Assembly (NCBI RefSeq): GCF_016612865.1
Contig: NZ_JAENZZ010000001.1
Coordinates: forward strand, 1,364,001-1,428,000
Length of the DNA stretch: 64,000 bases
Reading direction: 5' to 3'
Origin: Blastococcus sp. TML/M2B
GTDB lineage: Bacteria; Actinomycetota; Actinomycetes; Mycobacteriales; Geodermatophilaceae
The notes below the pieces were generated by a model. It was not told where the DNA came from. It did not search any database and was given only the letters and a program-made list of their open reading frames with translations. Of the stretch, positions 52,068 through 56,086 are shown piece after piece; positions within the stretch are counted from its first letter, which is position 1, and each line of letters starts with the position of its first letter. Both the position numbers and the translations under genes were made by a program.

Positions 52068-52999
52068 GTGCAGCTCCGCATCTTCACCGAACCGCAGATG
52101 GGCGCCACCTACGACGACCTGCTCGCCGTGGCGCGGCGCACCGAGGAGACCGGTTTCGACGCCTTCTTCCGGTCCGACCACTACCTGACCATGGGTGGGG
52201 ACGGGCTCCCCGGTCCGACCGATGCGTGGCTGACCCTCGCCGGGCTGGCCCGCGAGACCAGCCGCATCCGGCTCGGCACGCTCATGACGGCGGGCACCTT
52301 CCGGCTGCCCGGGCCGCTGGCGATCTCCGTGGCGCAGGTCGACCAGATGAGCGGTGGCCGCGTGGAGCTGGGCATCGGCGCGGGCTGGTTCGAGCGCGAG
52401 CACACCGCCTACGGCATCCCGTTCCCGTCGCTGGGCGAGCGGTTCGACCGGTTCGAGGAGCAGCTGGCGATCATCAGCGGGCTGTGGGGCACCCCGCCGG
52501 GGGAGACGTTCGACTTCACCAAAAAGGTCAGCACTACCGGGTGAGCGGCTCGCCGGCGCTGCCCAAGCCGGTGCAGGACGGCGGCATCCCGATCCTCGTC
52601 GGCGGCGGCGGGAAGAAGCGCACGCCCCGGCTGGCCGCGCGCTACGCCGCCGAGTTCAACGTGCCGTTCATGTCGGCCGAGGACAACGCGCGGCTGTTCG
52701 GCGGCGTGCGGGAGGCCTGCGACGAGGCCGGCCGCGACCCGTCGTCCCTGGTGTGCAGCTCGGCCCTCGTGCTGTGCGTGGGGAAGGACGAGGCGGAGAT
52801 CGCCCGCCGGGCGGCCGCGATCGGGCGCGAGGTCGACGAGCTGCGGGCCCACGGCGTGGCCGGGACACCCGCCGAGGCGGTCGACGTCCTGGGCCGCTAC
52901 GCCGAGGCGGGCGCCCAGCGGGTCTACCTGCAGGTGCTCGACCTGGCCGACCTCGACCACTTGGACCTGGTGGCCTCGGAGGTCGCGCCGCAGCTCTGA
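52068..52999 (+). CDS. F420-dependent LLM-class oxidoreductase, frame broken once
   Basis: About 310 aa from GTG 52068. A TAGCGT box ends six bases upstream (leaderless). It has the luciferase-like barrel sequence FTEPQMGATYDDLLAVARRT, SDHYLTMGGDG, ARETSRIRLGTLMTAGTFR, QVDQMSGGRVELGIGAGWF. The frame then breaks at AAAAA (52521-52525). Reading resumes at GQHYRVSGSPALPKPVQ and IPILVGGGGKKRTPRLAARYA, typical of the F420-binding region. The break needs one lost or two extra bases. The reductase NpdG (14785) could supply F420H2. Substrate unknown. Confidence 0.82.
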
Positions 53000-53034
53000 G
53001 TCCGGCGCTCCGCTTCGAGGCAGGGGCCGCGCGG

Positions 53035-53040
53035 TAGCAT
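53035..53040 (+). promoter_or_regulatory. -10 box of the leuS leader transcript
   Basis: TAGCAT ends seven bases before the GTG of the leader peptide, so transcription should start at or next to that GTG. No clear -35. Confidence 0.55.
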
Positions 53041-53047
53041 CGGCGCC

Positions 53048-53083
53048 GTGACCGGCGGGCTCCTGCTTCCCCTGCCGTGCTGA
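53048..53083 (+). CDS. leuS leader peptide (attenuator)
   Basis: An 11-codon ORF, GTG-ACC-GGC-GGG followed by CTC-CTG-CTT-CCC-CTG-CCG-TGC and TGA, encodes MTGGLLLPLPC. It has four Leu codons in five, including CTT, a rare codon here. It is probably leaderless. It lies 87 bp upstream of leuS. Right after the Leu codons a 9-bp stem (GCCGTGCTG 53074-53082 with CAGCACGGC 53099-53107) can form, and then the terminator. This is the layout of ribosome-mediated attenuation sensing charged leucyl-tRNA. I could not identify the antiterminator pairing. Confidence 0.7.
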   Translation: MTGGLLLPLPC

Positions 53084-53108
53084 TCTGACGACAGCGGACA
53101 GCACGGCG

Positions 53109-53133
53109 GCCCCTCCTGCGTGAGGGGCTTTTT
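53109..53133 (+). terminator. Attenuator terminator before leuS
   Basis: GCCCCTC, loop CTGCGT, GAGGGGC, then five T. This is the best intrinsic terminator in the window by T-tract and it lies between the leader peptide and leuS, 37 bp before the leuS start. Confidence 0.8.
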
Positions 53134-53169
53134 CATGCCCGTCGGCGAACGAGACCAGGAGCACGAACG

Positions 53170-56086
53170 ATGAGCCAGACGGCCGACCAGCCCAACGTCG
53201 AGCAGGCGGCGGGGGACATCCCCCCGCACCGCTACACGCCCGCGCTGGCCCAGCAGATCGAGCTCTCGTGGCAGGACCGCTGGGAGGCCGAGGGCACCTT
53301 CCACACGCCCAACCCCACCGGCCGGCTGAGCGAGGGCTTCGAGCGGGTCGCCGATCGCCCGAAGTTCTTCGCGATGGACATGTTCCCGTACCCCTCGGGC
53401 GCGGGCCTGCACGTCGGACACCCGCTGGGCTACCTGGGCACCGACGTCACCAGCCGGTTCCGCCGGATGGACGGCGACAACGTGCTGCACCCGATGGGCT
53501 ACGACGCCTTCGGCCTGCCCGCCGAGCAGTACGCCGTGCAGACCGGGCAGCACCCCCGGGTCACCACCGAGGCCAACATCGCCGCGATCAGCGCGCAGCT
53601 GCGGCGGCTGGGCGTGGACCACGACCAGCGGCGCACCTTCGCCACGATCGACCCGGGCTACTACAAGTGGACCCAGTGGATCTTCCTGCAGATCTTCGGG
53701 TCCTGGTTCGATGAGGACGCCGGCAAGGCCCGCCCGATCGAGGATCTGGTCGCCGAGCTCGACGCCGGCACCCGGGAGCCCGCCGCCGGCACCAACCCGA
53801 CCGGCCGCCCGTGGGCGGAGCTGGACGCGCGCGAGAAGAAGGTCGTCGTCGACGGCCACCGGCTGGCCTACCTGAACGAGGCCCCGGTGAACTGGTGCCC
53901 CGGCCTGGGCACCGTGCTCTCCAACGAGGAGGTCACCGCCGACGGGCGCTCCGAGCGCGGCAACTTCCCGGTGTTCCGGCGCCCCCTCAAGCAGTGGATG
54001 ATGCGGATCACCGCCTACGCCGACCGGTTGCTGGCCGACCTGGACCGGCTGGACTGGTCGGAGTCGCTGAAGCTGATGCAGCGCAACTGGATCGGCCGCT
54101 CGACCGGGGCGAGGATCCGGTTCGCCGGTGGGGCGGGTGGGGGCGACACGGCCTCGGGCGAGACCATCGAGGTCTTCACCACCCGGCCGGACACGCTGTT
54201 CGGCGCGACCTACGTGGTGCTGGCGCCCGAGCACCCGCTGGTCGAGGCCCTCACTGCGGGCGCGTGGCCCGACGGCACCGACCCGCGGTGGACCGGTGGC
54301 GCGGCCACCCCGGCCGAAGCCGTGCGCGAGTACCAGCGGCAGGCCTCCCGCCGTTCCGAGCTGGACCGCCAGGACGCCGGGCGCGAGAAGACCGGCGTCT
54401 GGCTGGGCGTACACGCGGTCAACCCGGTGAACGGCCGCGAGCTGCCGGTGTTCATCGCCGACTACGTGCTCACCGGCTACGGCACCGGCGCGATCATGGC
54501 GGTGCCCGGCGAGGACACCCGCGACATTCGAGTTCGCCGAGACCTTCGGGCTGCCCGTCGTCCGCACCGTGCAGCCGCCGGCCGGCTTCGAGGGCGGCGC
54601 GTACACCGGCGCCGGACCGATGATCAACTCGGCGAACGACGAGATCTCGCTCGACGGGTTGGAGAAGACCGAGGCGATCGAGCGGATCACCGCCTGGCTG
54701 GTGGCCCGTGGCGCCGGCGAGGCCACCACCACGTACAAACTGCGGGACTGGCTGTTCAGCCGGCAGCGCTACTGGGGCGAGCCGTTCCCGATCGTCTACG
54801 ACGAGGACGACCGCCCGGTCGCCGTCCCGACGTCGATGCTGCCGGTGCTGCTGCCCGAGGTCGACGACTACTCGCCCAAGACGTTCGCCGACGACGACGC
54901 CGACTCCGCCCCCGAGCCGCCGCTGTCCCGCGCCACCGACTGGACGACGGTCGAGCTGGACCTGGGCGAGGGCCTGAAGAAGTACCGCCGCGAGACCAAC
55001 ACGATGCCCAACTGGGCCGGGTCGTGCTGGTACTACCTGCGCTACCTGGACCCGGGCGACGACGAGCGCATGGTCGACCCCGAGCTGGAGCGGTACTGGA
55101 TGGGCCCGCGCTCCGAGGGCGACACCGGCGGCGTCGACCTGTACGTCGGCGGCGTCGAGCACGCGGTGCTGCACCTGCTGTACGCCCGCTTCTGGCACAA
55201 GGTGCTGCACGACCTCGGCCACGTGTCCAGCGAGGAGCCGTTCCGCCGGCTGGTGAACCAGGGCTACATCTCCGCCTACGCCTACACCGACGAGCGGGGC
55301 TTCTACGTGCCCGCCGCCGAGGTCGTGGAGAAGGACGGCCAGTTCCTGTACGAGGGCAAGCCGGTCAACCGCGAGTACGGGAAGATCGGCAAGAGCCTCA
55401 AGAACATGGTCACGCCGGACGAGATGATCGGCGCGTACGGCGCCGACACCTTCCGCGTCTACGAGATGTCCACCGGCCCGCTGGAGCAGTCGCGGCCGTG
55501 GGAGACCAAGGCCGTGGTCGGCTCGCAGCGGCTGCTGCAGCGGATCTGGCGGGTCGTCGTCGACGAGGTCTCCGGCGCCGTCCGGGCCACCGCCGACGTG
55601 GAGCCCGCGGAGGAGACGCTGCGCGCGCTGCACAAGGCGATCGACGGCGTGCGCGACGGCTACGCGACGCTGCGGTTCAACATCGCGATCGCCCGGATCA
55701 CCGAGCTGACCAACCACCTCACCCAGGCCTACGGCGCGTCGTCGCCGGTGCCGCGGTCGGTGGCCGAGCAGCTGGTGCTCATGGTGGCGCCGCTGGCCCC
55801 GCACCTGGGCGAGGAGCTGTGGTCGCGGCTCGGCGGCGAGGGCTCGGTGGCCTGGGCGCCGTTCCCGACCGCCGACCCGCGCTGGCTGGTCGAGGACACC
55901 GTGCAGGTCGCCGTCCAGGTCAACGGCAAGGTCCGGTCGCAGGTGACCGTGCCGGCCGACGCCGACGCCGCCGCGCTGGAGGCCGCCGCCCGCGCCGACG
56001 AGAAGATCGCCGGCCACCTCGAGGGCGCGACGATCCGCCGCGTCGTCGCCGTCCCCGGCCGGCTGGTCAACTTCGTCCTCGGCTGA
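53170..56086 (+). CDS. leuS: Leucyl-tRNA synthetase, frame broken once
   Basis: About 970 aa, ATG 53170, AGGAGC upstream. It charges tRNA-Leu. The HIGH motif is HVGH in [14 protein letters not shown]; the KMSKS loop reads KIGKS in [11 protein letters not shown]. The editing domain contains [21 protein letters not shown]. At GACATTCG (54521-54530) one extra base breaks the frame between VPGEDTRD and [12 protein letters not shown]. The enzyme is essential and normally single-copy, so the break must be a sequence error. Control is probably by the leader-peptide attenuator upstream. Confidence 0.93.

Follow-up and report, generated by a model that had tools for sequence, protein, structure and literature searches.

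The leuS gene of Blastococcus sp. TML/M2B appears to be controlled by a leucine leader-peptide attenuator, a reading to which we give a probability of about 0.9 from sequence and comparative data. Such a switch would very probably let the cell make more LeuRS when charged leucine is short. The element lies between leuS and its upstream neighbour, an oxidoreductase-like gene, in the 64,000-nucleotide stretch of DNA that we analysed (hereafter, the window), and is made up of the following parts:

53035..53040, + strand: -10 box TAGCAT (from the sequence); by implication, transcription would start at the GTG of the leader ORF
53048..53083, + strand: leader-peptide ORF MTGGLLLPLPC with its stop codon, probably leaderless (from the sequence; similar leaders in relatives)
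53060..53068, + strand: putative regulatory leucine codons CTC CTG CTT, the last (CTT) near-invariant in the family
53069..53073, + strand: 5-nucleotide spacer from the CTT codon to stem A (spacing count in leuS elements)
53074..53107, + strand: stem A, 9 bp, GCCGTGCTG/CAGCACGGC, proposed antiterminator (fold; covariation)
53108..53133, + strand: intrinsic terminator, 8-pair stem and T tract (fold; consensus scan; covariation)
53170..56086, + strand: leuS, the putatively controlled gene (ORFs; LeuS homology)

The leuS element in the window

The TAGCAT box is separated by 7 nucleotides from the GTG that opens the leader (GTG ACC GGC GGG CTC CTG CTT CCC CTG CCG TGC TGA), and the 5' arm of stem A, GCCGTGCTG (53074-53082), holds the end of this ORF and most of its stop codon. 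It pairs with CAGCACGGC (53099-53107), and the predicted fold leaves a gap of 0 nucleotides between stem A and the terminator, GGCCCCTC-CTGCGT-GAGGGGCT-TTTT (53108-53133). The ATG of leuS follows at 53170, 86 nucleotides beyond the leader stop codon. The leader folds at -46.4 kcal/mol (z -3.17), which beats 198 of 200 shuffles. An earlier note on this DNA had described the ORF MTGGLLLPLPC before leuS, the TAGCAT box, the 9-bp stem and the terminator, and its coordinates and description hold. It had also called this the only T-tract terminator in the window, which is fair: four consensus scans spanning the window returned 13 terminator-like matches, some of them overlapping, and the one in the leuS leader has the longest stem of the 13 (8 pairs, against 5 to 7) with a T run immediately 3'.

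T-box riboswitches control aminoacyl-tRNA synthetase genes by charging state. Unlike these, the window gave no Rfam T-box match: the scan found nothing at gathering score for any family, T-box included, and the matches at E <= 10 in 52990-53200 were five, from unrelated families far below their gathering scores, with no T-box among them.

The sequence of leuS itself calls for a comment. LeuS of a relative (L083) aligns to the window in two successive frames, with the junction at 54503-54525, so that leuS carries an apparent frameshift in the window; an assembly error is the likely cause. Upstream, an ORF that we read as an F420/LLM-type oxidoreductase also seems, by reading, to switch frame near 52530, and a protein comparison at this place returned nothing. 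Elsewhere in the same genome, trpE appears as two overlapping matches. Several indels in this assembly are likely.

Conservation and geometry of the element

A similar leader pattern was found 5' of leuS in all 17 further Blastococcus genomes of a search among relatives. An RNA covariance model built from 11 elements (R1) then identified it in all 23 Blastococcus genomes, that of the window included. Streptomyces leuS loci match R1 as the window does, and the element occurs both before LeuS proteins close to that of the window (60% or more identity) and before distant ones (about 45-50%). In a class-wide draw, searched with stricter filters that lose weak matches and counting any downstream gene, R1 gave matches in 137 of 296 genomes, belonging to 59 of 106 genera; the 159 genomes with no match include 20 listed genomes of one family (f8). 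At one locus (L100), there is a terminator-like hairpin 5' of leuS with no recognisable leader peptide, perhaps a decayed element.

Both helices covary. In an alignment of 81 matches (81 rows from 79 sources, two rows being partial matches on the opposite strand), stem A is paired in 99.0% of cells, with 4 pairs changed on both sides, and the terminator in 93.9%, with 6 such pairs, hence changes on both sides in 10 of 17 pairs for the two together; as the alignment had been fitted to the structure, these pairing and covariation figures are on the favourable side. As a control, partners slid along the alignment pair in 44-53% of cells. On five measures of covariation, none of 500 shuffles reached the observed value of any, and neither did any slid version. 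The element is far beyond chance, as judged from its presence in 23 of 23 Blastococcus genomes and from the covariation of both helices. The alignment of leuS upstream regions from related actinobacteria, which had been proposed as a check on the original observation, shows conservation of the leucine codons and of both stems.

To describe the geometry, we started from 195 regions with both structure and gene, of which 140 passed a score of 33 together with a -10 box and 128 were non-identical (125 leuS, 2 cimA and 1 leuA). In these 128 filtered elements, a TANNNT box stands 6 (89) or 7 (39) nucleotides 5' of the start codon, where the filter demanded 5-9. Fifteen rows with a score of at least 33 failed. 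They include four leuS rows (L014, L015, L064 and L224), for which the program chose a wrong hairpin or start, as well as the two rows for ilvB, the one for ilvA and 6 of the 8 for cimA, where the search for a leader having a TANNNT box at 5-9 nucleotides gave none, so that the case for leaderless translation rests on leuS. The spacing of the -10 box suggests that the leader of the window is probably leaderless too.

Clustering below 88% identity left 87 representatives, 76 of them leuS in the codon count and 75 in the counts of abutment and folds. Of the 76, 70 have CTT and 4 have CTC as the codon that ends 5 nucleotides before the GCC of stem A; the codon preceding it is CTN in 73, and the next one back is a leucine codon in 65. 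CTT is a rare codon here, with 16 of 1208 leucine codons (1.3%) in 25 high-GC3 ORFs of the window; in the same ORFs ATT, which is found in cimA leaders (see below), accounts for 1 of 250 isoleucine codons. The pattern CTT-N5-GCCG was first searched with CTT fixed, and the counts over 76 representatives and 125 elements left the codon free. By automatic call, the distance from the last leucine codon to stem A is 5 nucleotides in 99 of the 125 leuS elements; the 26 exceptions include 10 in which a further CTC follows CTT and 12 whose stem is lengthened outward by 1-2 pairs. To the latter belongs the window, scored at 3 because two weak pairs could extend its stem A outward into the base of the terminator. 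The place of the stop codon is also constrained: counted from the codon at the CTT place, it is TAG at +2 codons in 13 elements and TGA at +5 in 56, that is, 69 of 74. In one leader (L149, MASQQQRLIGPR), the sole leucine codon is a CTT at the usual third place. A pattern search with TGGTGGTGG was uninformative.

Stem A abuts the terminator in most elements. The strongest stem ending within 40 nucleotides upstream of the terminator ends 0 (41) or 1 (23) nucleotides from it in 64 of 75 representatives, a figure in which distance was unpenalised but which is not wholly independent of the earlier choice of terminators, since these were picked together with a distance-penalised stem. Of the remaining strongest stems, 7 end at 2-3 nucleotides and 4 at 24-40. 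Gap counts over the filtered set of 128 come from a search that penalised gaps. The stem beats all 20 of its own dinucleotide shuffles in 65 of the 76 leuS representatives.

Possible action of stem A on the terminator

We propose the following sequence of events. Transcription would start at the GTG of the 11-codon leader ORF, to be translated without a Shine-Dalgarno sequence. With leucyl-tRNA in short supply, the ribosome would stall when a leucine codon, ultimately the rare CTT, occupies its A site; stem A, which starts 5 nucleotides beyond CTT, would lie at the mRNA entrance and remain folded. With folded stem A 0-1 nucleotide away, the terminator would be unable to close inside RNA polymerase, and transcription would run on into leuS. 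With ample leucyl-tRNA, the ribosome would reach the stop codon and open stem A at its base, whereupon the terminator would end transcription. The start of transcription, the stalling, the polarity and the steric block by abutment are steps that we infer; that stem A acts as an antiterminator through this abutment is the version of its role towards which we lean.

Published work on ilvB suggests the polarity. In the accessible text on ilvB1 of Mycobacterium tuberculosis (PMC13236596), replacement of the LVVI codons abolishes induction and leaves a low expression. For ilvBNC of Corynebacterium glutamicum, a hairpin whose base adjoins the terminator was modelled as the antiterminator, and the mutants, as far as the available text goes, inform mainly on the stability of the terminator (PMC11857589). 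As to distance, a structure that follows the A-site codon by 5-9 nucleotides probably sits at the unwinding site of the entrance channel, according to the part of PMC5009743 at hand, and the 5-nucleotide spacer of leuS elements is at the short end of that range. A footprint of 15 nucleotides beyond the start of the P-site codon would cover about 5 nucleotides of stem A when the ribosome is at CTT, which weakens the argument from geometry. That folded stem A hinders the closing of the terminator in the RNA exit channel is put forward as a hypothesis, since the two helices fold side by side in free RNA.

Attenuators of the E. coli trp and leu type combine a leader peptide with control codons, an intrinsic terminator and the position of the ribosome as signal, and one helix shares bases with the terminator. 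Is the leuS element of this classical design? Stem A would then serve as the protector (1:2) or pause hairpin, and its 3' arm, freed by stalling of the ribosome, would pair with the terminator to form a 2:3 antiterminator. The tandem hairpins with regulatory codons just upstream do resemble trpL. The consensus of hairpin-stabilised pause sites contains a TG, and a TG stands 10, 11 and 12 nucleotides after stem A in 35, 21 and 20 of 75 leuS elements, which is loosely like a pause site. A hairpin-stabilised pause of RNA polymerase was rejected as more than an idea: by reading, the TG is not at that place in cimA elements. Seliverstov et al. in 2005 also described the leuS attenuators of Streptomyces as classical ones with antiterminator hairpins, in the text of PMC1262725 available.

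The predicted folds speak against this design. In the window and most relatives, stem A and the terminator are neighbouring helices that form together. Modelled with a ribosome at the leucine codons, at the stop codon or absent, 15 of 18 representatives keep the terminator in every state; of the exceptions, two Brachybacterium loci (L057 and L058) lose it in some states and one segment (L105) is too short. More broadly, the terminator stem is part of the best fold in 72 of 75 representatives with no ribosome, in 73 and 70 of 75 with two alternative footprints at CTT, and in 71 of 74 with the ribosome at the stop codon. We also computed the mean probability that the 5' arm of the terminator pairs upstream in a transcript cut before the 3' arm, with the upstream sequence intact or shuffled. 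With the ribosome at CTT and a 15-nucleotide footprint, this is 0.13, against 0.42 after dinucleotide shuffling (n=75), a low value due in part to what remains of stem A, which holds upstream bases; mononucleotide shuffling gives 0.46, and a 10-nucleotide footprint brings the observed value to 0.00. With the ribosome at the stop codon, it is 0.28 against 0.37 after dinucleotide shuffling (n=74). The widely variable length of the stem A loop among elements is a further point against this design. Thus, unlike in the E. coli attenuators, an antiterminator helix sharing bases with the terminator is predicted neither in the window nor in most members. The exceptions, which favour the classical design, are the leuS elements of Brachybacterium equifaecis (L057), Brachybacterium massiliense (L058) and L172, whose terminator stem is lost in masked folds and where a competing structure may exist. 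We consider a classical attenuator rather unlikely. A competing helix is not a feature of the family, and what is conserved between stem A and terminator would be their contact.

Contact could also work the other way, with stem A stacking on the terminator and strengthening termination, so that a stalled ribosome partly opening stem A would cause read-through. Abutting helices could stack coaxially, and the 15-nucleotide footprint of a ribosome at CTT could reach into stem A as noted above. However, the terminator is stable on its own: when the leader of the window is masked up to the stop codon, the leftover RNA, mainly the terminator, folds at -17.6 kcal/mol, and the same masking gives -11.6 to -15.6 kcal/mol at six other loci (L083, L091, L054, L028, L104 and L068). 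The ilvB work in relatives, in the portions of PMC11857589 and PMC13236596 consulted, moreover gives antitermination to the structure that the stalled ribosome leaves free. A terminator-strengthening role for stem A is, in our opinion, improbable.

Control at the level of translation, after the LEU element of leuA, would have the run of leucine codons pair with the Shine-Dalgarno region of leuS. GCTCCTG in the leader of the window could indeed form 7 bp with CAGGAGC ahead of leuS, but such complementarity is not clearly above that of exchanged partners (50 loci, p 0.12) and the conserved terminator would be left without a role, which makes this very improbable. That the terminator merely ends upstream transcription, with a chance ORF and no regulation, is hardly credible: it does sit after the upstream gene, but a promoter-like box, a start codon and leucine codons lie between the two and are conserved together with it.

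We thus return to a leucine attenuator in which stem A would act by abutment. The earlier proposal of leader-peptide attenuation on a leaderless ORF gains from the conserved tandem leucine codons, the TANNNT box and the covarying hairpins; what does not follow from the predicted folds is the 9-bp stem as a classical competitor of the terminator.

Other genes and other systems

The element also occurs upstream of other genes of branched-chain amino acid metabolism. We examined 40 R1 matches, not a random sample but mostly ones without a listed leuS place, and called their genes from sequence motifs in the downstream frames: 28 lie before leuS, 8 before cimA, one each before ilvB, ilvA and leuA, and one (L239) before none of these. 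NCBIfam models matched 9 of 10 proteins scanned: citramalate synthase above cut-off for six (L231, L236, L240, L241, L250 and L252), acetolactate synthase for L211, 2-isopropylmalate synthase for L247 and, below cut-offs and for a fragment, threonine ammonia-lyase for L238; L239 had no match.

The eight cimA elements (L231, L232, L236, L240, L241, L243, L250 and L252) have leaders that end in isoleucine codons, such as MTVRQIIF, MNTQVIII, MTRSLIIT and MFYGLLIIGRRAG, each followed by a stop codon. The last isoleucine codon is ATT or ATC and lies 4-5 nucleotides from the stem, and all eight stems abut a terminator. Only 2 of the 8 elements have a -10 box at 5-9 nucleotides.

The genome of the window has a second R1 match, before ilvB (L211; G000:C2:1178945-1179027, minus strand), with a leader ending in LLVVP and a stop codon. 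We located ilvB by protein family in 10 genomes, a set independent of R1 except for this copy, which R1 had already matched. A terminator is present in 9 of the 10 (none in L274), and the same layout in 9 of 10. The strongest upstream stem lies 0-1 nucleotide from the terminator in 8 of 9, and 3 nucleotides from it in the genome of the window. By reading, the last branched-chain codon stands 4-5 nucleotides before the stem in 8 of 9 and 7 nucleotides before it in L276. Only 3 of the 10 loci gave a leader preceded by a -10 box. One member (L267), from a presumably mycobacterial genome of family f8, has an LVVI leader with the succession of codon, spacer, stem and terminator. As a check of the layout rule on Trp leaders, we looked for TGGTGG within 480 nucleotides upstream of the trpE match, and it was absent at 7 of 7 loci.

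The closest known systems are those of Streptomyces. In 2005, Seliverstov et al. predicted that leuS of Streptomyces coelicolor and S. avermitilis is under attenuation (PMC1262725), and an RNA-seq paper on S. lividans in 2021 reported leuL2, MRAVRLLLSEPR, as leaderless, with a hairpin and a U stretch behind it (PMC8079986). As far as the accessible text of both goes, the window shares with them the gene, the leucine leader and a hairpin with a U-tract terminator. The leader peptide differs, MTGGLLLPLPC in place of MRAVRLLLSEPR, and so does the evidence for a leaderless start, which comes from RNA-seq for leuL2 in the part of PMC8079986 available and from the position of the -10 box in Blastococcus. 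The text of PMC1262725 at hand has a classical antiterminator, whereas here a stem abuts the terminator with no predicted replacement of it. Leaderless leader-peptide attenuation of leuS, called unusual in the earlier note, is therefore not so in this phylum, where both Streptomyces papers, in the parts available, offer precedents; the 2005 prediction and the 2021 leader had anticipated the core idea. Another paper (PMC4833913) makes no mention of leuS by name in its accessible part.

The 'fast' attenuator of C. glutamicum ilvBNC, in the sections of PMC11857589 at hand, is similar in that the base of its antiterminator hairpin is adjacent to the terminator and in that its leader, with control codons CUU and GUA, starts within a nucleotide of the transcript. 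It differs by hairpins that overlap by the trinucleotide GCC and by a further hairpin, H1. No such shared GCC was found at the boundary in the window, where the 9-bp stem A ends before the terminator. Similarly, M. tuberculosis ilvB1 has branched-chain codons in its leader, and the relative with the LVVI leader (L267) has the present layout; however, ilvB1 involves another gene and other amino acids and, in the available text of PMC13236596, is described as two mutually exclusive structures.

In the open-access literature and a few subscription journals, we did not find in print the rule linking CTT, 5 nucleotides, stem and terminator, nor a stem abutting the terminator, nor the lack of a predicted competing helix seen in most members, nor the same layout before cimA, ilvA, ilvB and leuA. 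As cimA and ilvA leaders of this type did not come up in that literature, they are candidates for regulation not described there. We suggest tentatively, at slightly below even odds, that one actinobacterial attenuator design serves leuS, cimA, ilvA, ilvB and leuA, a switch without competing helices in which a hairpin pressed on the terminator is opened once the ribosome passes a control codon about 5 nucleotides upstream. If this is true, an untranslated leader would lead to read-through and not to termination, the opposite of the trp paradigm.

The element of the window extends a switch known from Streptomyces to Blastococcus; this switch is widespread in Actinobacteria and its geometry is unusually strict. 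Its wider value lies in a rule that can be checked on sequence, namely a control codon, about 5 nucleotides, stem A and a terminator without gap. This rule fits the leuS, cimA, ilvA, ilvB and leuA leaders found here, and it points to a way in which termination could be governed by a leaderless ORF with no helix to compete.
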